This document shows, piece by piece, positions 1 to 17,788 of a DNA stretch of 20,399 nt; position 1 is the stretch's first letter, and each line of letters starts with the position of its first letter. Source of the DNA: a virus. The stretch is from positions 1 through 20,399 of the IMG/VR virus record IMGVR_UViG_3300032325_000051. One strand, written 5' to 3'. A model generated the notes under the pieces. That model ran no database searches, was not told where the DNA came from, and saw only the letters and a list, made by a program, of their open reading frames with translations. The position numbers were made by a program, and so were the translations under genes.

Positions 1-225
1 CTCTCAAATTAGCACGTTCCAAATCAGCACCTATCAAATCAGCACCTATCAAATTAGCATCTCTCAAATTAGCATCTCTCAAATTAGCACGTTCCAAATC
101 AGCACCTATCAAATCAGCACCTATCAAATTAGCATCTCTCAAATTAGCACCTTCCAAATTAGCACCTCCCAAATTAGCACCTCCCAAATTAGCACCTCCC
201 AAATTAGCACCTCCCAAATTAGCAC
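1..225 (-). repeat. 15-bp tandem repeat array encoding the pentapeptides, with a 75-bp higher-order duplication
   Basis: Fifteen consecutive 15-bp units fill 1-225, each close to CTNNCAAATTAGCAC on the plus strand. Positions 1-75 and 76-150 are a higher-order duplication: the first 60 bases are identical and the last unit differs only in its final base. Positions 166-225 are four identical units. The array is coding, one pentapeptide per unit on the minus strand, and the low divergence between units points to recent slippage or unequal recombination. Confidence 0.93.
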
Positions 226-298
226 GTTTTCCTCCTACTTCTGAATTTAACCACTTCTTGTGTAAATTCAATATTTCATTTAATTCTTCTTGTTTCAT
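1..298 (-). CDS. Pentapeptide-repeat protein, N-terminal part (runs off left edge)
   Basis: The frame starts with ATG at 298-296 and stays open to the window edge, so about 99 residues are visible and the C-terminus is missing. After a 25-residue head ([12 protein letters not shown]..., then [12 protein letters not shown]) it is nearly fifteen pentapeptides of the form A(N/D)LXX, such as [15 protein letters not shown] and ADLER. Pentapeptide repeats fold as a right-handed quadrilateral beta-helix; some members (Qnr, MfpA) mimic DNA and bind gyrase, but most phage members have no known role. The start is supported by a very strong Shine-Dalgarno sequence (AGGAGGT, 305-311) and a 4-base ATGA overlap with the upstream HTH gene. 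The family call is firm; the function is unknown. Confidence 0.9.
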
Positions 299-672: not shown

Positions 673-702
673 CAAAGATAAAAACTATTTTCAATATTGC
701 AA
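673..702 (-). promoter_or_regulatory. Bacteroidota-type sigma-70 promoter (TTG-N19-TATCTTTG)
   Basis: Reading the minus strand, TTG (702-700) is followed after exactly 19 bases by TATCTTTG (680-673). This matches the established Bacteroidota housekeeping promoter consensus, TTG at -33 and TAnnTTTG at -7. The start would fall near 666, giving a short leader before the ATG at 649. It sits just downstream of the terminator at 724-747, so it opens a new transcription unit read by the host polymerase. Confidence 0.8.
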
Positions 703-723
703 AATTATTTTTCAAAAAAAGGC

Positions 724-747
724 AAAAAAAAGGGGAACTTAATCCCC
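724..747 (-). terminator. Intrinsic terminator after the virion/lysis operon
   Basis: On the minus strand a 5-bp stem, GGGGA (747-743) pairing with TCCCC (736-732), has a six-base loop and is followed by eight T (731-724). The TAA stop of the upstream gene (741-739) lies in the loop. The stem is short but GC-rich and the T-tract is uninterrupted. Confidence 0.75.
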
Positions 748-1266
748 TCCTAATGACTTTGCGATATACTCCGCCATCCTATCCGATAGTATTTGCAACA
801 TTTTGTCGTTGACGTTCTGTGCAACGAATGGCTGTGCTTTCGTTCCTTTGCGGTGTATCTTTCGGGCAATTACATACGCTAACGCTTTGACTGTTTCGGC
901 TCTGCTTTGAGTTGAACTTGTACGGGTTTGTATTTTTTTTTCTACAATCCATTGTTCCAATGATTTAATTAAAGTCGGATTACTTGGAGATTTAGTACGT
1001 GTTGGTTTACGTCCGTATTCTATCCAGTACCAATAATCCTGCATTTCAACTTTGAGATTAAATCCTTTTGGTGTTGGCTTTGCTATTGATGCAATTGATT
1101 GAGATAATGTCTGCGAAGCGTTTGTTTTGTTTTTACGCAAATCTATACGCATCCGATTTGAAACCTCGTTGCCCCAATTTTGCACAATACGAAGTAACCC
1201 ATCTCCCGACGGGTTAAAATTTGCGAAATCTTCGCCTAATTCATCAATCGATTTGTTTACTGCCAT
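739..1266 (-). CDS. Tail completion / neck protein, HK97 gp10-like
   Basis: About 175 aa from MAVNKSIDEL; an in-frame ATG five codons earlier (1281) is possible but lies deeper in the lysozyme gene. The architecture fits the HK97 gp10 neck/tail-completion family: an N-terminal helical segment, the motif DYWYWIEYGRKPTR, then an SLEQWIVEKKI segment, ALAYVIARKIHRKGTKAQPF, and a C-terminal helix ending in the stop. The GRKP and GT(K/R)xxPF motifs are typical. Such proteins join the tail end to the connector. It overlaps the end of the GH108 gene and is the last gene of the long operon, its stop being inside the terminator hairpin. The family is assigned by motif recognition, without a search. Confidence 0.65.
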   Translation of the reverse strand: MAVNKSIDELGEDFANFNPSGDGLLRIVQNWGNEVSNRMRIDLRKNKTNASQTLSQSIASIAKPTPKGFNLKVEMQDYWYWIEYGRKPTRTKSPSNPTLIKSLEQWIVEKKIQTRTSSTQSRAETVKALAYVIARKIHRKGTKAQPFVAQNVNDKMLQILSDRMAEYIAKSLGGD

Positions 1267-7820: not shown

Positions 7821-8086
7821 TATTCGTTATATAAAACGATTGAACCCGATGCTAAAGTGATTGAAGTTATCACTAAATCTTCGCTCACGGGAATGTAAAT
7901 ACCTTGTTTCAATGTTACGCCCGTTAGTCCTAATGGTGTCATCAAATTTGTTGCACCACTCAAACAAGCGGAAACAATCGCATCGCTATTAACAACAAAA
8001 CCTCTATAACGCCCTGTTTTTGCGGATGTATTACTCAAAACGGTGCAACCCGTGAAACCTGCTGAAAATGCTGTACTTGAACTCAT
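7820..8086 (-). CDS. Small beta-rich virion-associated protein
   Basis: 88 aa, Ser/Thr/Gly-rich and free of charged clusters: MSSSTAFSAGFTGCTVLSNT, GRYRGFVVNSDAIVSAC, LKQGIYIPVSEDLVIT, ending TLASGSIVLYNE. It looks like a compact all-beta structural protein, as in small decoration or fibre-associated proteins. It is coupled to the 119-aa gene by an ATGA overlap and to the adhesin-like gene by one base. The function is not recognised. Confidence 0.65.
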   Translation of the reverse strand: MSSSTAFSAGFTGCTVLSNTSAKTGRYRGFVVNSDAIVSACLSGATNLMTPLGLTGVTLKQGIYIPVSEDLVITSITLASGSIVLYNE

Positions 8087-8442
8087 AATGTTTTTTCTAT
8101 TAGTGTTGGATTATATTCTGTTTGACCTTGAAATATTTCTGTTACCTTTAAAATACCTACTTCAATTAATGTAGCGTTTAAAGGGTTTAAATTACTGTTA
8201 CTGCTTTGCTCGTAAACTTGGTATAAATGTTCGCACGGATCAAGTGTGAAGATAGTTCCCTCTATTACGTTAAATTTATTATAACGCTCTTTGTAGTTTG
8301 ATACGTCTGTAAGTATTACGGCTGTTTTAGAATTGGTTAAACGATTGATGAAAACAAATAAAAACTTCGGGTTAGCGATACTAACCTTTTCAGTAAGTGT
8401 CAAGTACCACGACTTCGTTTCTCCCTTGTTTATTTGTAGCAT
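8083..8442 (-). CDS. Virion-associated protein of the adhesin cluster
   Basis: 119 aa, beginning MLQINKGETKSWYLTLTEKV, with a strand-rich middle (PKFLFVFINRLT, FNVIEGTIFTLDPCEHLYQV) and ending YNPTLIEKTL. It resembles a small protein I associate with Bacteroidota phage structural clusters, of unestablished role. It is the first gene after the strong terminator at 8476-8506, and its ATG directly abuts the 30-bp element at 8443-8472. This suggests it begins a separately controlled segment. Confidence 0.6.
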   Translation of the reverse strand: MLQINKGETKSWYLTLTEKVSIANPKFLFVFINRLTNSKTAVILTDVSNYKERYNKFNVIEGTIFTLDPCEHLYQVYEQSSNSNLNPLNATLIEVGILKVTEIFQGQTEYNPTLIEKTL

Positions 8443-8472
8443 TATATATAATTAGCGTTTTTAACTTTTTGG
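8443..8472 (-). promoter_or_regulatory. 30-bp start-proximal element, copy A
   Basis: Read on the minus strand: CCAAAA at element positions 1-6, an A-rich stretch, then CGCTA at 16-20 and TTATATATA at 22-30, followed at once by the ATG of the 119-aa gene. It matches copies B and C without gaps; 22 of 30 positions are identical in all three. The terminator T-tract ends three bases upstream. Confidence 0.7.
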
Positions 8473-8475
8473 AAT

Positions 8476-8506
8476 AAAAAAAGGGGATAGAAGTTAATCT
8501 ATCCCC
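8476..8506 (-). terminator. Strong intrinsic terminator after the capsid/tail tube genes
   Basis: On the minus strand a perfect 9-bp stem, GGGGATAGA (8506-8498) with TCTATCCCC (8491-8483), closes a six-base loop and is followed by seven T (8482-8476). It lies 24 bases after the 168-aa gene. It would end or attenuate transcription of the highly expressed head genes. Confidence 0.88.
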
Positions 8507-8530
8507 CTCAATCATGAAAAACAAATGAAA

Positions 8531-9037
8531 CTATATACCAAGTGCAGTAACTACGTTGGCTTGTAATTTGTAAGGCGCTTCGGCTTCAATAGCAGACAAT
8601 GTAAAATCATATCCTACACTATCCCCCATTGCAGTACCTGTGCCACCCGTCATTGCAGTAATATCGCAACCGTACTCACGTCCACACAACCAATAGTTGT
8701 CGTTATTGTCTCGAACAATACAGAAAACTCTGTTTTGAGCTAACAACTTTAACTCGTTGCGTTTAGTAGTTGACAATTTTCGTAAACGTGCTACAATGTC
8801 AGTTTGATTAAATACCGTTCCGTTTTCTTGAGAAACGTTAGTAGTGATGGTCATGCTACCCGTTGCCTTTGGTAATTCGTATGTGAATACAGTACCACTC
8901 GCAACAGTTGTTGCAGTCACTTCGCCACCGCTTACTGTAAATCCTGTTTTTGCCCAATCCACCAAGTGAATGGACTTTACACCCCCGACTGAATCTTTAC
9001 AGTCAAGGGTGAATCCTGCGGTTAACGAACAAGCCAT
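8531..9037 (-). CDS. Virion structural protein, probable major tail tube protein
   Basis: 168 aa, beginning MACSLTAGFTLDCKDSVGG, a signature I associate with a protein encoded directly after the capsid gene in Bacteroidota phages. The rest is beta-rich with one helix (RLRKLSTTKRNELKLLA) and a C-terminal GTAMGDSVGYDFTLSAIEAE segment. The G(Y)xxTLxAxE end resembles major tail proteins, in which the last strands form the tube. It lies three bases after the capsid gene and ahead of a strong terminator, as expected for an abundant virion protein. A head structural protein is the alternative. Confidence 0.6.
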   Translation of the reverse strand: MACSLTAGFTLDCKDSVGGVKSIHLVDWAKTGFTVSGGEVTATTVASGTVFTYELPKATGSMTITTNVSQENGTVFNQTDIVARLRKLSTTKRNELKLLAQNRVFCIVRDNNDNYWLCGREYGCDITAMTGGTGTAMGDSVGYDFTLSAIEAEAPYKLQANVVTALGI

Positions 9038-9040
9038 CTA

Positions 9041-9979
9041 TTACGCTAATTTAAATTGAACTAATTGATCAGGGAATGCGATTTGAACACCGTATTTCAT
9101 TGATGCTCTATAACGTACTTCGTCGTTATCTTGGCTATACCAGAATTTGAACTCTTCTTCTTCATTTGCAAGGTCAGTACCTGCAAAGAAGTTGTTCAAA
9201 CGACCTAAGAACAAACGGTTAGTACCATCTAATCCACCTACTGCAACTAATTTAACATTTGTACCTGGAATGATTGTTTCCATTTCAGCAGTTGCGTCAG
9301 CCATATAATGGAACAAATTAGCATTCTTCAAGTTAACCAAATACTTCTTGTAAGTGTCGATACCACAGAAACAAACCAAATCAGATTCAGTTGCGATGTC
9401 AGATGGAATAACGGCATACATTGCGTCTAAAATATCGTCAATGTTTGAAGTAGTGATTGCAGTTGCGCTAATGGTGTTACCTGCGATTGTAGATGCAGAA
9501 GCAGCGTCAATGATTTTATTAAAACCATCGAAACGGTTAGTGTTAGGGTTAGTGTTAGTTGAAGCGGTGTCACCTTGCCACATTGCTACTTCTAACAATT
9601 TAGCAATACGTGATGCTTTCTCACGACCAATTTGCTCTTCAAATGGAACTTCTACTGCTGAACCTGGTGCGATTTGAGTTTGCATCCATTTTGCCTCCAA
9701 AGTTTTAGGACACAAAGTCTCTTCTACTTTGATTGCTCCTACTGTGATATTACGTTGAGTGTAGGTTGTTAATCCACTCGGACTATAACCACATCCGTCG
9801 CTTTGAAAAAATACAGTTGAAGTCAAGATGTTAAGTGCAGATGCACTCTTAACTCCTACTTGTACTTGACCTGCGTTAAACAACATCTCTGCTGTTTTGC
9901 TTCCGAATAATGAACGAGTCAAAAGATCGGTTCTTTGCTCGTCGGTGTAATTTGCTAATGATGATACTACGAATGACAT
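9041..9979 (-). CDS. Major capsid protein
   Basis: 312 aa, in the usual size range for an HK97-fold capsid protein. Visible pieces: LANYTDEQRTDLLTRSLF at the start, PFEEQIGREKASRIAKLLEV (a long spine-helix-like segment near 120-140), DDILDAMYAVIPSDIA, the strand LVCFCGIDTYKKYLV, and a C-terminal YSQDNDEVRYRASMKYGVQI ending near LVQFKLA. This matches the capsid protein I know from related Bacteroidota phages. Position after protease and scaffold-like genes and before the tail tube candidate supports it. The first residues show no long delta domain, consistent with a separate scaffold gene. Confidence 0.85.
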   Translation of the reverse strand: MSFVVSSLANYTDEQRTDLLTRSLFGSKTAEMLFNAGQVQVGVKSASALNILTSTVFFQSDGCGYSPSGLTTYTQRNITVGAIKVEETLCPKTLEAKWMQTQIAPGSAVEVPFEEQIGREKASRIAKLLEVAMWQGDTASTNTNPNTNRFDGFNKIIDAASASTIAGNTISATAITTSNIDDILDAMYAVIPSDIATESDLVCFCGIDTYKKYLVNLKNANLFHYMADATAEMETIIPGTNVKLVAVGGLDGTNRLFLGRLNNFFAGTDLANEEEEFKFWYSQDNDEVRYRASMKYGVQIAFPDQLVQFKLA

Positions 9980-9983
9980 TTTT

Positions 9984-10535
9984 TTATTTTTTAAGTTGTT
10001 GTGCTAATTTGATAATGTTTGCGAATTGTTGCTCTTTTTTAGATAATTGTTTTGATGGTGCTTTTGTTGGCTCTTCACTTGGTAGATTTGCAACCGCTTC
10101 TACTAAATCAACTGTTTTAGAAAATACTGATTTCATTGAATTAAATTTATATTCTGTTTCAACTAACTTCTTCTCAAGTGCTTCTAAACGGCTAACTGCG
10201 TCATTGAATGCTGACATTAACGAGTTGAAAGATTCAAGCGATGCAAATTCAGATGCTTCAACTTCAACCTCTACTTCGGTTTCTGTTTCAACGATTTCGG
10301 TAACGATCCCGTCAACGGTTGTAACTAACATCCCCCCCTCAACTTCGTGAGTTGCGTCAGGTGCTTTGATTAACCCCTCGCCAGTTTGTACGAAGATTGC
10401 AGTACCAACGCCAAGTTCGCCTTCCCATTCAACAATAGTTCCGTCAATCAATGTGGCTGTTGCCATTTCTGTTTTAGTTTCTTCGGAAAACCCCAACAAT
10501 GAGCGTATTTCCTGAATTACTTCTTTACTGTTCAT
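9984..10535 (-). CDS. Capsid scaffolding-like protein
   Basis: 183 aa. After a short helix (SKEVIQEIRSLLGFSEE), residues 25-82 form a beta-rich module with TATLIDGTIVEWEGELGVG and HEVEGGMLVTTVDGIVTEIV. A Glu/Val alternation (TEVEVEVE, 86-93) leads into a coiled coil (FNSLMSAFNDAVSRLEALEK) and a basic Lys/Gln C-terminal helix (KKEQQFANIIKLAQQLKK). The acidic/coiled-coil body plus basic C-terminus is the usual scaffold plan, the tail contacting the capsid protein. It sits between protease and capsid genes. Copy B of the 30-bp element precedes the ATG by three bases. Confidence 0.7.
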   Translation of the reverse strand: MNSKEVIQEIRSLLGFSEETKTEMATATLIDGTIVEWEGELGVGTAIFVQTGEGLIKAPDATHEVEGGMLVTTVDGIVTEIVETETEVEVEVEASEFASLESFNSLMSAFNDAVSRLEALEKKLVETEYKFNSMKSVFSKTVDLVEAVANLPSEEPTKAPSKQLSKKEQQFANIIKLAQQLKK

Positions 10536-10538
10536 TTT

Positions 10539-10568
10539 TATATATAATTAGTGATTTGGTTTTTTTGG
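10539..10568 (-). promoter_or_regulatory. 30-bp start-proximal element, copy B
   Basis: Read on the minus strand: CCAAAA at 1-6, three more A, CCAAAT, then CACTA at 16-20 and TTATATATA at 22-30. It ends three bases before the ATG of the scaffold-like gene. It occupies almost the whole gap between the protease stop (10570) and that start. Confidence 0.7.
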
Positions 10569-10569
10569 C

Positions 10570-11463
10570 TCAATTTTTTCCATTCCATTTCCCTGCAATG
10601 GTTTTTAACTTGCTCATCAAAGCGTTTACTATTTTATCTTCTTTCGATTCGTCAAAGTCAAAATATCCCTCAACTGAAAACCCTTTAAACTCCCCGTCTT
10701 TTACCTTTTGCCATATTGTTTCGTCGTTCACGATATACGACAAAAACCAACTGCCGTCCGCTACTTCTTCATATCCTTTTGGTGGCATTATTCCACGCTC
10801 ACGATCAATAATAAACGATTCAAATAGCGAAAGTCCGTTTGTTGCTTTGTCGTGGTGTATGTTAACGCTATCGTATTTGTCCCCCATTGCCCACTTCTTG
10901 GCAATTTGGAAAATCGTGTCTTTGTCAAATACAACATAGTATTCCCCACGTGCTTCGTCATAGCGATAAATTGGTAAATCCGCAATCATTGCAGGTCCAC
11001 TAATAATCCGCTTCTCTTCATCTTGAATGCTAAACTTTTTACGGGCTTTGCTTAATTCCAACTCTTCTAACTTTCTTTCAGTCCATCTTAACATCTCATC
11101 TCCACCCCATAACAGATAGGAAATAGTTCCACACGCTTTTGTGTCGTTGGGATTGTAATATTCTTTCGCTCTACTCAAATAGGAATAAGTGCGTTTAATC
11201 GTTTCAATGGATAGATTTTCACGTGCTACTAACTGCCTTGCACGATTTTTCCCTACAAGCGTTGCGCAATCGTTGTTCACTTTTGCATTTAGATTAATTC
11301 CACGTTGTGCGTTTTGACTTGCACCTTGTGGATAGTCGTTAAAAAACTCGTGTCTGTTAAAATATAAAAAGTCCTTTTCGATTGCAGGATTTGTAACAAG
11401 TGAAACAAACTCCACCCCCGTTTCGTCTTCTTCGTTAATTACTAACTTGTAAATAGGTAGCAT
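10570..11463 (-). CDS. Prohead protease, XkdF-like, with extra N-terminal domain
   Basis: 297 aa. Residues 150-270 match the XkdF-like phage protease pattern: RIISGPAMIADLPIYRYDE, GEYYVVFDKDTIFQIAKKW, NIHHDKA (H203/H204), LFESFIID (S216), DGSWFLSYIVND and VKDGEFKGFSVEGYF. Such proteases mature the procapsid. The start, YKLVINEEDETGVEFVSLVT, is usual for this family. Residues about 48-135 are an inserted module: AQRGINLNAKVNNDC, VGKNRARQLVARENLS, TIKRTYSYLSRAKEYY and ACGTISYLLWGGDEMLRW. This module also occurs in other phage proteases as I recall. Copy C of the 30-bp element abuts the start codon. Confidence 0.82.
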   Translation of the reverse strand: MLPIYKLVINEEDETGVEFVSLVTNPAIEKDFLYFNRHEFFNDYPQGASQNAQRGINLNAKVNNDCATLVGKNRARQLVARENLSIETIKRTYSYLSRAKEYYNPNDTKACGTISYLLWGGDEMLRWTERKLEELELSKARKKFSIQDEEKRIISGPAMIADLPIYRYDEARGEYYVVFDKDTIFQIAKKWAMGDKYDSVNIHHDKATNGLSLFESFIIDRERGIMPPKGYEEVADGSWFLSYIVNDETIWQKVKDGEFKGFSVEGYFDFDESKEDKIVNALMSKLKTIAGKWNGKN

Positions 11464-11492
11464 ATATATAAATAGTGTTTTTAGTATTTTGG
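11463..11492 (-). promoter_or_regulatory. 30-bp start-proximal element, copy C
   Basis: Read on the minus strand: CCAAAA at 1-6, TACTAAAAA, then CACTA at 16-20 and TTATATATA at 22-30. Its last A is the first base of the protease ATG. It fills the entire gap between the tape measure stop (11495) and the protease start. Confidence 0.7.
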
Positions 11493-13460: not shown

Positions 13461-16121
13461 TTAGTGTCCTTCTGAAATTATATGATAGTTAGTTCCGTCG
13501 CTTACAAGTTGATCCCACGAATGGTTATTCGTTTGATTATGCGTTGCGCTTCCGTCAATTAATCCGCCCTCTGTTTCGATTGTTACTCTGTGTCCTGAAT
13601 TAACCTTTTTAATCACAAACATTTTACCTTTGTTGGTAGTTGCATTTGGTAGTGTAATTGTTATATTGCCACCGCTTGTATTGCAAACAATCATCCAATC
13701 TTCTTTCGTTGCCGTGTAGTTAGCAGTTTTACTTACAATGTTTCCACTTGCTAACCAGTTCGGGTACATCAAATAACCACCAACGTGAAATCCCTCTACT
13801 TTTGGCGTGTAATCTGTGCTACCTATTACCGTTGTGTTGCTGAAATTATCGGGAATAAACACACGCTCACTACCTAATACTGTATTATGTGTTCCGTTAA
13901 TGTTGTTTAAATCCCCTACTACAATATTATCTCCCGTACCTCCTAAATTATTTCCTATATAAACGCCTCTATTATCACTTGAAAGGTTGTTGGTTTTGCG
14001 TCCGCTTGGATTTACTCCATTGTATGTATCTGCCCAATTTGTGCCTACTGATTTAACCACGCTTAACGATGGTTCATAATACTTCGATAGTGCAAATTCG
14101 CATTCATACAACCCATCTACATCGGGATTGTAATTAGAAATACTTTGTAGTTTCCAATAGTTATTAGCAAAGAAATACTGATTGCTGAATTTAAGCGTCA
14201 ACCAGTCTTTTTTAGTGATACTAAAATATCCCCGAAACAATTTAGCGTCCTTATCTGCAATCTCGCTAATCATTTTGTAGTAGTATTGATTAACTAAATT
14301 TTGATTGCTATACTCTAAATTCAGTTCAACATCAATAGACAAAGGCGCACCAAAATTTAAATCAAACTGCATATTTGAAACGCTATCTATATGCAATGTC
14401 AAAGGGTACTTGGTAATAGGATTTACGCTCGTTGTCGTTGTTTCGTACACTTTGTATGCGCTTGTAGTTGCTACACCACCGAAATACAACACTCTTAATT
14501 CGCCTGTGCTATCTTTGCTTTCAATTACGCTATAAATCTTGTCTTGTAACTGTCTTATAGGCGTTGGAACAAAACTAACTTCTATCTTTTTTTCGCTCTT
14601 TACAAAGTCATTGTCAATTCGCACAATTCTATCGCCATACGTTCTGTTGTACGTTTCTTTGTACTCACTATTAGTCGTGTCTTTGCCGTCTTTAAACGTA
14701 AATACATACGGGTTAGATTGCAAATCTCCCATTGGTATAATCGTTTGCGGTTGGTCGTAATCGAGTTTCTCACTCCAATCTAATCCTACACCGTTGTAAA
14801 ATTCATCACGTGGAACAAATCGTAACTCTTTACTTCCGTTGTCTTCAACATACAAATTGAACATTTTAACGAAGTTGCTCAATAGTTCGCTTTGAGTGTA
14901 TTCGCTACCTGAAAAGAACGCTTCAAAGTTGATGACGTTGTTGTAAAAGTATTGATTTGCAGATACCTTATTAAATATGTAAGTGTCGCCCGTAATGTTT
15001 AACGTATCTACTGGGATATTATTAGTTGACGAATCCAAAAACTTCATTTCAACTTCATCTCCACTAATTAAATTAACAGATACGCCCTCCGTATTTTCAA
15101 AAGTAAAAACGTTACTTAATGCCGTTGTTTGAAAGTTAATCAACCCAACTTGTACACCATTTATAAAAACTCCAAAATTAGCAAATCCGAAATCCCCATC
15201 GGTTGCAGTATAGTTAAACGAACCATTTAACGCCACGAAAAACATAAAATTTCCCGATGTTGGTGCGGTGTATTTGTAGGTAGTATTATTGAAGTTGCCT
15301 CCATTGTCAAAGTTACCCCCCGTACTATCGTTTGACGTGGGTATAATATTACCAGCGTTTAGAGTAGTTGAACCGCTGACTTGTGCTTGAAATAACCTTG
15401 TGTTTTGAGTTGTTTCGTCTGCTTGGAATCCTAAATTAGTGTATGGAATTATAAGCCGTTTGAACCTATCCGAATTGAAAAATGAATCACTTGTATAGGT
15501 ATAACCTACATTGCTGAATATCTTATCTACAATGGTTTTAGCGTAAAGGCAAGGAATATGGTCATCAACACGCCAAAATCTAATATTTGAATTTTGCGTT
15601 GCTCGTTTCGGTGCTATCTGTGAGTAAACATAACCTTTGCCGTATTCAAATGGTGTAGTAGTGCTGTTTACAATAATTGAAGTGTCCCACGAATTAATAA
15701 CATTATCACGGTTTAAAGTGTGGTTGTATTCACTGAAATCGAGATCCGATAACTTTAAATTCTTAATGTCATTGAACAAATCAGATAACTGCCCGTGAAT
15801 GGTTATGTTATAACTCATCTGCTCATCGTTTGCGACAATATCCGTTAACCTAATAAACCCTTGCAAGTGAACCGCACCATCGACCAAAAGTAAGCAACTC
15901 GCTTTCTTATTTGGGTTATACTGAAATTGCGTGATACTTTTGTTTACATCAAATATATGATTGAATAGTTTGTTGTTATTTGGAGTACCTGGAATAGTTA
16001 TGGTTTTACTCCATTCGCTTTGACGTTGTTGTGGCTCACGTATGTCTGCAATGTTTTTGGTTATTTGCAGGTCGATTTCATCAAACTCTAACGCTTGGTT
16101 GTTTACTATTATCTCAATCAT
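13461..16121 (-). CDS. Large tail/baseplate protein with fibre-like C-terminus
   Basis: 886 aa. The N-terminus (MIEIIVNNQALEFDEIDLQI, then QRQSEWSKTITIPGTPNNNK and LFNHIFDVN) matches a conserved tail protein of Bacteroidota phages. The centre (300-690) is beta-rich with tail-hub-like features. From about 723, NLGGTGDNIVVGDLNNINGT and HNTVLGSERVF resemble YadA-head-like short repeats. The last ~90 residues (NITITLPNATTNKGKMFVIK, then SWDQLVSDGTNYHII) form a beta-domain common at fibre tips. It is probably the adhesion-carrying tail tip protein. The start overlaps the 546-aa gene by four bases (ATGA). Confidence 0.7.
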   Translation of the reverse strand: MIEIIVNNQALEFDEIDLQITKNIADIREPQQRQSEWSKTITIPGTPNNNKLFNHIFDVNKSITQFQYNPNKKASCLLLVDGAVHLQGFIRLTDIVANDEQMSYNITIHGQLSDLFNDIKNLKLSDLDFSEYNHTLNRDNVINSWDTSIIVNSTTTPFEYGKGYVYSQIAPKRATQNSNIRFWRVDDHIPCLYAKTIVDKIFSNVGYTYTSDSFFNSDRFKRLIIPYTNLGFQADETTQNTRLFQAQVSGSTTLNAGNIIPTSNDSTGGNFDNGGNFNNTTYKYTAPTSGNFMFFVALNGSFNYTATDGDFGFANFGVFINGVQVGLINFQTTALSNVFTFENTEGVSVNLISGDEVEMKFLDSSTNNIPVDTLNITGDTYIFNKVSANQYFYNNVINFEAFFSGSEYTQSELLSNFVKMFNLYVEDNGSKELRFVPRDEFYNGVGLDWSEKLDYDQPQTIIPMGDLQSNPYVFTFKDGKDTTNSEYKETYNRTYGDRIVRIDNDFVKSEKKIEVSFVPTPIRQLQDKIYSVIESKDSTGELRVLYFGGVATTSAYKVYETTTTSVNPITKYPLTLHIDSVSNMQFDLNFGAPLSIDVELNLEYSNQNLVNQYYYKMISEIADKDAKLFRGYFSITKKDWLTLKFSNQYFFANNYWKLQSISNYNPDVDGLYECEFALSKYYEPSLSVVKSVGTNWADTYNGVNPSGRKTNNLSSDNRGVYIGNNLGGTGDNIVVGDLNNINGTHNTVLGSERVFIPDNFSNTTVIGSTDYTPKVEGFHVGGYLMYPNWLASGNIVSKTANYTATKEDWMIVCNTSGGNITITLPNATTNKGKMFVIKKVNSGHRVTIETEGGLIDGSATHNQTNNHSWDQLVSDGTNYHIISEGH

Positions 16122-17758
16122 CTTCTTGTATCGTAATAACTCACTTCAACTTCTAATGTCAAGTTAAACACTTTGTCTTTCACGTGTTGCTTTTCTTCAT
16201 ATGTATTTGTCACGATAGTAACGCCTTTTATTTGCCCGTCATACATCCATACTTTAGGAGAACTAACTAATTCCTGTAACCATTCCGCTTCTTCTTCTGT
16301 TATGAAATTTGAGTTTAAGACTAATCGCTCACGTGTTTCGTTTAGGTAGTTGGAAAGCGTATGCCCTTGTTTAGAGTAGTTGTACGTGTTTACGTTTAAA
16401 CTATACGGGTTTTTGCGGTACGTTTTACGCTCAACATTATGCGTCTTCGTGTGAATCATATCAAATCGGAACGATTCAACAGCACCTAAACGATTAACGA
16501 AGAACAAATCTATACTTGGATATTTACTGCATCTGTCATCTATATCAATGGTGTAAGGTGTGCCTACTAATGCACCGCCCGTTTGAATAGGTGTTACAAT
16601 GTACCCATCAATTCCCAAAGGAATACCATCTGGAATATTGCTACCTATTGGAAAACGGCATATAGTGCCACTCTTTGCGCTTATTAGTTTTGTTGGTACA
16701 TAGTTATTTAGCGTTGCTCCTATCGTGAATTGAGGTCTTGAAACTAATGCTGTTGCCGTTGCATTTTCCGTACTTGTACCAACTCCGAAGCGAGGGAATC
16801 CAATACCTGCCGTTGCACCTACTCCAAGAACTAACGCTAATCTTCCCGTTTGCGCTTGACTATTTTCATTAACCAAAATCCCATTGCGATAATATGTAAA
16901 GGTGCATCCGATCGGAACAGCCGCAATCGTTAGAATATCATTGTAATTAATTGTACCGCTTACTTGCTCTAAATCAATGCTAAAAACATACGATGTATTA
17001 GCTGTTAATGTAATTGAGTTTGCTACTTGTAAAATCTGCTTTCCACTTGTTACCGTGTTAATATATGCCGTTGAATAACTATCTATTGTCGATGCGGTTG
17101 GTGTGCTTGTTCCTGTTCCAATAACACTCCAAAAAGTTGGCGAAACACCCTCTAATACACTATTGTAGAAAAGATTTCTAACAGAATCACTCCAATTAAC
17201 GCTAAGGTAGCCAATACTACTGCCGTGTAAAGCGTAAAGCCATTCTTTTTGATCAATGTGTATTCTCTTGTTAAAGTTATTAGTTAGGAAATTCGCAGTT
17301 GAACCCGAAGCCATTAAGTAGTCTGCTTGGTCATAATCCAACCATTCAAAAGGATCTAAAACCGCATTAAAAACGCTTCTACTTGAAATCGTAGTATCTC
17401 CACTAACGGGAACTATTGGCGAAGTAGTGCCTGTGCTATACTCGTAACCAAATGCAACTTGATAACCGAATCTTTGTGTTTGACAGTCCTTACTTTCAGT
17501 ATCGTTAAAATCCCAATCCGTTATAACATAGTCGCAAAGTATCTGACTAATATTAAACACCGCCTTGTTAGTTGTGCCGTAGTAAATAGGTGCTTTTAAT
17601 CGTGCGAGTAAATTTCCGCTTCCGTCTTTTACGTCTGCAAGTATCTTTACATTGTTCTGACTTGTTACGCCCGTCGGTGCAGTAACTACAAATATGTTAT
17701 CGTTTTGGCTTGGTTTGTAAGTCGAACTAACCTGCTCAACTACTGTCAATATCCCCAT
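16118..17758 (-). CDS. Distal-tail/baseplate-like protein with inserted binding-type domain
   Basis: 546 aa. The ends (MGILTVVEQVSSTYKPSQND at the start, then CSKYPSIDLFFVNRLGAVES and a beta-rich end LTLEVEVSYYDTRR) look like one tail protein. The middle (about 195-355: NLFYNSVLEGVSPTFWSVIG, ANTSYVFSIDLEQVSG, TFTYYRNGILVNENS) looks like a carbohydrate-binding-module-type jelly roll spliced in. Lectin-like insertions are known in distal tail proteins of other siphophages. The exact assignment (distal tail versus other baseplate protein) is inference from the position before the tail tip gene. Confidence 0.6.
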   Translation of the reverse strand: MGILTVVEQVSSTYKPSQNDNIFVVTAPTGVTSQNNVKILADVKDGSGNLLARLKAPIYYGTTNKAVFNISQILCDYVITDWDFNDTESKDCQTQRFGYQVAFGYEYSTGTTSPIVPVSGDTTISSRSVFNAVLDPFEWLDYDQADYLMASGSTANFLTNNFNKRIHIDQKEWLYALHGSSIGYLSVNWSDSVRNLFYNSVLEGVSPTFWSVIGTGTSTPTASTIDSYSTAYINTVTSGKQILQVANSITLTANTSYVFSIDLEQVSGTINYNDILTIAAVPIGCTFTYYRNGILVNENSQAQTGRLALVLGVGATAGIGFPRFGVGTSTENATATALVSRPQFTIGATLNNYVPTKLISAKSGTICRFPIGSNIPDGIPLGIDGYIVTPIQTGGALVGTPYTIDIDDRCSKYPSIDLFFVNRLGAVESFRFDMIHTKTHNVERKTYRKNPYSLNVNTYNYSKQGHTLSNYLNETRERLVLNSNFITEEEAEWLQELVSSPKVWMYDGQIKGVTIVTNTYEEKQHVKDKVFNLTLEVEVSYYDTRR

Positions 17759-17776
17759 ACACTAAAATAGCGTTTC
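17757..17776 (-). promoter_or_regulatory. Partial fourth copy of the start-proximal element
   Basis: Before the ATG of the 546-aa gene the minus strand reads AAACGCTATTTTAGTGTATG. Aligned on the start codon with copy C, 15 of 20 positions agree, including CnCTATTT. The 5' half (CCAAAA) is not conserved, so this is a weak or decayed copy at best. Confidence 0.35.
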
Positions 17777-17788
17777 GGGTAAAGTGTC

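Follow-up and report, generated by a model that had tools for sequence, protein, structure and literature searches.

Late promoters of phage T4 carry the -10-like box TATAAATA and have no -35 element, and the promoters of extracytoplasmic function (ECF) sigma factors consist of two short boxes about 15-17 nucleotides (nt) apart. The T4 late genes are served by gp55, a small and highly diverged protein of the sigma-70 family that sends the host core polymerase to them; the sigma2 and sigma4 roles are split between gp55 and gp33, and the sliding clamp activates (PMC2988020). The -7 box of flavobacterial promoters is TAHHTTTG, with T-12, A-11, T-8, T-7, T-6 and G-5, and the start lies 4-5 nt behind the box (PMC6847099). 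In F. psychrophilum, a CGT box in the -10 region was interpreted as pointing to an ECF sigma factor (PMC9723704), and lambda cI is an example of a leaderless mRNA (PMC9031893). The present analysis concerns a repeated element with the consensus GCCA-N15-TAnnTATAnnTA in a 20,399-base virus fragment from IMG/VR (IMGVR_UViG_3300032325_000051), the genes of which lie on the minus strand; the whole fragment is called the window below. The element is quite probably a late promoter that is read by a phage sigma factor and that makes leaderless or nearly leaderless virion mRNAs.

The arrangement resembles the T4 system in that a diverged, sigma-like phage protein accompanies an AT-rich -10-like box. 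It differs in the addition of a -35-like GCCA box at a fixed 15-nt spacing and in the sigma-like protein of the family, which joins region-2-like and region-4-like parts in one protein. The predicted two-domain sigma2-sigma4 layout, with SigL, AlgU and SigE as the best structural neighbours of the models, is shared with ECF sigma factors, and the two short boxes at a similar gap are shared with ECF promoters. However, the boxes of the family are GCCA and TAnnTATA rather than AAC and CGT, which are contained in the boxes of Nonlabens phage P12024S, and the protein falls below curated family cut-offs. Compared with the Bacteroidota primary-sigma promoter (-33 TTTG/-7 TAnnTTTG), the TA is equally far from the presumed start (-12/-11) and the early promoters of the family are of the same type, whereas TTTG is replaced in both late boxes (GCCA and TATAnnTA). 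As in leaderless mRNAs such as lambda cI, the promoter would set the 5' end at the AUG or a few nt from it; unlike cI, this geometry apparently recurs within one family of phages, among early as well as late messages, the main virion operons included. Phage late promoters and phage sigma factors are already known, and the features that would be new are the two-part box, the leaderless placement and a sigma-like gene that starts without AUG. No description of such an element was found in the open-access literature.

These largely unstudied phages offer a compact case in which the promoter, the candidate sigma factor and the timing are legible from sequence. The late messages are apparently leaderless, in a phylum with mRNAs lacking Shine-Dalgarno sequences, and the conserved non-AUG start, if real, would be an unusual hold on a viral switch. 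The element may serve as a promoter signature for locating late operons in uncultured phages, and the cultured phage P12024S, with its parallel arrangement, makes the idea testable at the bench.

The element in the window and its relatives

The first-pass annotation had reported 30-base matches on the minus strand at 8472-8443, 10568-10539 and 11492-11463, with distances of 0, 3 and -1 nt to the start codons. These positions and distances were exact, the ATGs lying at 8442, 10535 and 11463, and 22 of 30 bases were identical in all three copies, as counted by eye. One more base, a G or T ahead of CCA, belongs to the element, giving the units 8473-8443, 10569-10539 and 11493-11463. In the window, CTANTTATATATA occurred three times on the minus (coding) strand and never on the plus strand, with 0.01 expected per strand. 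A fourth, weak copy had been placed at 17776-17757 on the minus strand; the copy is real, but in register it reads GACA-N15-TATTTTAGTGTA at 17788-17758. It was regarded as genuine because the orthologues in other genomes have cleaner versions at the same place, being clear in L009, L029, L031, L041, L074, G005, G007 and G008 and clearer than the window also in G010. The four copies and the terminator next to the first are given here, with gene sizes in amino acids (aa) and the stem in base pairs (bp).

8443..8473, minus strand: late element A, TCCA-N15-TAATTATATATA, ending 0 nt from the 119-aa ATG
8480..8509, minus strand: intrinsic terminator with a 12-bp stem and a T run, directly upstream of element A
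10539..10569, minus strand: late element B, GCCA-N15-TAATTATATATA, 3 nt before the scaffold-like ATG, beginning right behind the protease stop codon
11463..11493, minus strand: late element C, GCCA-N15-TATTTATATATA, the last A being the A of the protease ATG
17758..17788, minus strand: late element D, GACA-N15-TATTTTAGTGTA, weak here (score 2.6), sharing the A of the 546-aa gene's ATG

A search with the capsid-like protein gave 448 related places, of which 80 were used; together with the window these formed 81 sequences of 750 kilobases (kb). Two further scans for relatives gave sets that overlapped with the first and some new loci. Ten long relatives (G001-G010) were records of 28-32 kb, and the nearest of them, G001, the major-capsid-like protein of which is 98% identical to that of the window, has the same three strong copies. 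The first-pass annotation had made its case depend on further copies in relatives, and such copies were abundant. In the 80 loci and the window, TTATATATA lay almost always within the element and beside an ATG. A weight matrix gave about 150 matches of at least 11 bits on the coding strand of the 81 sequences and one 11-bit match on the other strand, and none was obtained in Markov shuffles. Each of the ten long records carried some three or four copies, located in the virion block. These records also contained a few matches of lower score, within coding sequence or, for G002, in the early region, which look like chance or are unexplained.

IMG/VR was also scanned with one exact core. Among the at least 72 new loci listed, 15 were outside the family, and these look like chance matches, mostly away from gene starts. 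A match in the window at about 2127-2097 (score 13) was likewise judged to be chance, being inside coding sequence. A late-element match of 14-20 bits with no ATG directly behind it was also seen in the early region at L302:6338 (= G002 12612), L290:7519 and L293:1998; its sequence is GCCAATTTGCTATCTTTGCTATATACTAATA and also includes the host-type TATCTTTG.

Distinct upstreams were then counted for each orthologue at a matrix score of at least 10. The element preceded the scaffold orthologues in 50/50 cases, the 119-aa orthologues in 47 of 53 (the other six show a weaker form by inspection) and the protease orthologues in 30 of 41. No such score was found upstream of the capsid-like (0/52), 168-aa (0/51), tape measure (0/32), 886-aa (0/15), terminase (0/14) or endolysin (0/18) genes. 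The low-scoring protease upstreams include genomes without a gap, where the upstream coding sequence runs into the protease gene, and the protease lacks the element in L054, L060 and L062. In L060 and its relatives L055 and G008, the element precedes an 88-aa gene that has been relocated behind the tape measure. Because gapless proteases lack the element and the relocated gene is fronted by it, the element marks a position, namely the first gene after a gap, and not a particular gene.

The spacing of the two boxes was rigid. When the spacing was left free, the gap from GCCA to TAnnT was 15 nt in 115 of 125 distinct upstreams, and the strict pattern gave 85 of 95 at 15 nt. The first T of the -10-like box lay 10-16 nt ahead of the ATG, at a variable distance. 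A rigid box gap together with a drifting ATG distance indicates that the halves are recognised jointly, as DNA, and that the start codon is loosely coupled to them. The repeated element is a real, family-wide element that is conserved and rigid in its architecture.

Predicted transcription signals and the sigma-like gene

A comparable hairpin with a T run preceded the 119-aa gene in 51 of 53 relatives; among the other virion gene upstreams the count was 0/231. A message that ends at this terminator must be restarted. The base right behind the element was a purine in 127 of 130 cases, as expected of a transcription start, and when this purine is taken as +1, the TA falls at -12/-11, the same place as in the flavobacterial -7 box. 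The late consensus did not match the Bacteroidota primary-sigma -7 box TAnnTTTG, T-7 and G-5 being replaced. Of the features of a sigma-dependent late promoter, two boxes at fixed spacing with a variable interior were found, as was a location upstream of late genes on the coding strand. A sigma-54 promoter was rejected by inspection, the consensus being without GG and GC dinucleotides at the GG-N10-GC spacing, and a T4-type late promoter with a -10 box only was ruled out by the conserved GCCA box at fixed spacing.

When sigma region 2 was searched for, matches below threshold turned up in four of the ten long relatives (Pfam Sigma70_r2, 11-13 bits), and these led to a frame of ~180 aa that is present in 10/10. 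This gene had been missed among the ATG-started open reading frames because it has no ATG start. It lies beyond the 20.4 kb of the window, and the nearest relative carries one.

G001 25230-25781; G005 9433-9957; also in G009 and others, and in loci L225-L304 (outside the window): sigma-like gene

The protein contains the region-2-like stretch DLYQELF...GYWxGFVIRIxLNQ and the region-4-like helix-turn-helix (HTH) SARSISRxTGISRQEILRVI. The NCBIfam sigma70-ECF model (TIGR02937) matched nine of the ten members, the first over residues 14-167, with a best E value of 2.2e-4. Two AlphaFold models had predicted local distance difference test (pLDDT) values of 74 and 78. The 50 best Foldseek matches in the PDB were nearly all sigma factors, led by the three ECF factors named above, with probabilities up to 0.99 (1.00 for region-4 matches) and E values of 0.009-0.4. 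According to these sequence and model comparisons, the protein is a probable divergent ECF-type sigma factor. A scan with a divergent sigma for new clades added little.

The start codon of the gene was examined in 41 distinct sequences from 80 loci. The frame opened with AT[C/T/A] (27/11/3) in 41/41 and never with ATG, GTG or TTG, and no shared downstream NTG codon was found in the frame in these sequences. In most relatives, an in-frame TAA or TGA stood immediately or one codon before AT[C/T/A], which excludes an upstream start there. The sequence TTTG ended 4 nt (39) or 3 nt (2) before the non-AUG codon. Most simply, the gene would be expressed from a host promoter as a leaderless message with a non-AUG start codon, and the sigma would then stay scarce. 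Two points weigh against this reading: leaderless messages usually favour AUG (PMC9031893), and the box around the TTTG of the sigma gene is less perfect than elsewhere.

Host-type boxes were also seen in the early regions of the ten long relatives. There, TAnnTTTG boxes ended 3-5 nt ahead of early ATGs, with 13 of 17 at exactly 4 nt, and the counts at other ATG distances were near background. Examples are G001 20682 and 27408 and G005 4367, 6029 and 15718, and TTTTG is often found about 20 nt further upstream. The 4-nt spacing from box to ATG equals the spacing to the transcription start site reported for F. johnsoniae (PMC6847099). Since the early and late boxes share one geometry, both message classes look leaderless, with RNA predicted to start at the start codon.

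A parallel was found in Nonlabens phage P12024S (NC_018271, L305). Its gp33 is sigma-like, with a Pfam Sigma70_r2 match over the cut-off (E 1.4e-5) and matches to NCBIfam SigE-type models (E 5.7e-8). The pattern AACAAA-N13/14-CGTTAATA-N4-ATG, in which the box spacing was read by eye, stands before six genes of this phage (179, 3031, 5412, 23961, 25201 and 26802). The distance from motif to ATG was exactly 4 nt in 6/6, and one of the six sites has CGTTACTA and a divergent upstream box. In P12024S, CGTTAATA occurred five times on the plus strand, all at motif sites, and twice on the minus strand, with one expected. The elements of P12024S and of the family are alike in architecture, and in both the start of the box lies 12 nt ahead of the ATG. 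When the profiles of the two phage sigmas were compared, they aligned weakly in region 2 (E 0.023, probability 2%). A different sigma-like gene together with a different -10-like box is expected if the sigma reads the element, and P12024S appears to hold a parallel arrangement with another sigma-like gene and motif.

Proposed mechanism and alternatives

In the proposed mechanism, the host primary sigma would read the TTTG/TAnnTTTG promoters of early genes early in infection, and a similar host-type box appears to front the phage gene for the divergent ECF-type sigma. The phage sigma would direct the host core polymerase to the late elements, with GCCA acting as the -35-like box on the upstream side and TAnnTATAnnTA as the -10-like box downstream of it. 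The RNA would start at the purine behind the element, at the ATG or up to about 4 nt before it, and the late virion mRNAs are most likely leaderless or nearly so. Late elements would open each segment, namely the 546-aa gene, the protease, the scaffold/capsid segment and, behind the terminator, the segment from the 119-aa gene to lysis. We infer from the sequence patterns that the element is transcribed, where its start site lies and that this sigma is its reader. We tentatively propose further that the phages run much of their programme leaderless, early and late, with the non-AUG-started sigma as a brake on the late genes; on this point we are almost evenly divided and lean slightly towards doubt.

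The first-pass annotation had weighed a leaderless late promoter against a translation enhancer, and the promoter is favoured by the rigid gap, the terminator, the placement, the sigma-like gene and the parallel phage. An AU-rich translation-initiation enhancer in a continuous polycistronic mRNA, recruiting ribosomes in place of a Shine-Dalgarno sequence, would suit an element that directly adjoins the ATGs, and Bacteroidota, without Shine-Dalgarno sequences, prefer A at -3 and A-rich upstream motifs (PMC6847099). Such an enhancer is nevertheless decidedly unlikely. The box gap is rigid at 15 nt while the ATG distance drifts, and an enhancer with a fixed start-codon position was rejected on the 10-16 nt between box and ATG at fixed box spacing. 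Moreover, the GCCA box is conserved some 30 nt upstream, the capsid-like and 168-aa genes have no element, and the 51/53 terminators immediately upstream would deprive the 119-aa gene of any obvious message if no promoter came after them. A further alternative is that the host polymerase and primary sigma act with a phage activator on GCCA, in the style of Mor/C, Ogr or MotA, and that the ECF-like protein does otherwise. The TA at -12/-11 and the T at -8/-6 are common to the host -7 box TAnnTTTG (PMC6847099), and conserved HTH proteins exist in the phages. However, the late box no longer contains the TTTG of the host box (TAnnTATA), whereas the early promoters of the same phages retain it, the sigma-like gene is present in 10/10 long relatives, and P12024S pairs its different sigma-like gene with the different box CGTTAATA, as expected of a sigma; an activator is therefore considered unlikely. 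A promoter for a single-subunit or other phage-encoded RNA polymerase is hardly credible. The element is long for a recognition sequence, family-specific and at chance level outside the family among the IMG/VR matches listed, as such a polymerase might have it, but no polymerase was seen in the ten 28-32-kb relatives, which are possibly incomplete records and in which the large frames look like virion or replication genes. A PF00940 search for the polymerase was negative, and its control was negative too, so this result is weakly supportive.

Several observations weigh against a leaderless late promoter read by the phage sigma. In the Bacteroidota hosts that have been studied, only a minority of mRNAs is leaderless: the share is 5.5% in F. 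psychrophilum (PMC9723704), and in B. thetaiotaomicron 3.7% of 5' untranslated regions are under 10 nt (PMC7366714). The TIGR02937 matches of the sigma-like protein fall under the 42.9-bit cut-off and the Pfam matches are also below the curated cut-off; a sequence-only PDB search, Pfam and PHROGs gave no confident match; and the best Foldseek E values were 0.009-0.03, none being below 0.009. The link of sigma and element draws on their joint presence in ten related genomes and on one parallel phage. Other conserved DNA-binding candidates are present, a 59-aa HTH protein and a DnaA-C-like 153-aa protein, and either could be an activator in place of the sigma. The family comprises siphoviruses of ~30 kb, with Flavobacteriia as their probable hosts. 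The host of the window is likewise probably a flavobacterium, because the closest cultured matches, which are distant, are to Nonlabens phages P12024S/L (31% identity for the portal, 36% for the protease).

Other features of the window

The gene order in the window begins with the terminase large subunit, the 546- and 886-aa late genes, the tape measure and an XkdF-like protease. These are followed by the scaffold-like gene, the major-capsid-like gene, the 168-aa gene and the 119-aa gene, and then by the portal, further genes, a metallophosphoesterase and a GH108-type endolysin. The genes behind the four elements and the remaining signals are listed below.

8083..8442, minus strand: 119-aa gene of the virion block, no known family, ATG at 8442
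9984..10535, minus strand: 183-aa scaffold-like gene, no family match, between the protease and the major-capsid-like gene, ATG at 10535
10570..11463, minus strand: protease gene (Pfam Peptidase_S78_2, XkdF-like, E 2.4e-13), ATG at 11463
16118..17758, minus strand: 546-aa late gene with no function assigned, upstream of the tape measure, ATG at 17758
728..751, minus strand: intrinsic terminator closing the lysis/late operon
673..705, minus strand: host-type early promoter-like sequence (TTTTG ... TATCTTTG), behind the terminator at 728..751

No relatives were found in bacterial genomes in two scans of genome contigs, and the capsid-like and sigma-like proteins had no match among cultured phages. 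At 751-673 on the minus strand of the window, the terminator and the host-type promoter-like sequence divide the late block from the 56- and 59-aa genes. The 153-aa early protein (G001 24625-25086) has a DnaA C-terminal DNA-binding domain (Pfam Bac_DnaA_C, E 1.4e-14), with homologues in 10/10 long relatives. A 15-bp repeat array at the left end of the window (1-250) encodes a pentapeptide-repeat protein (GANLxGANLx).

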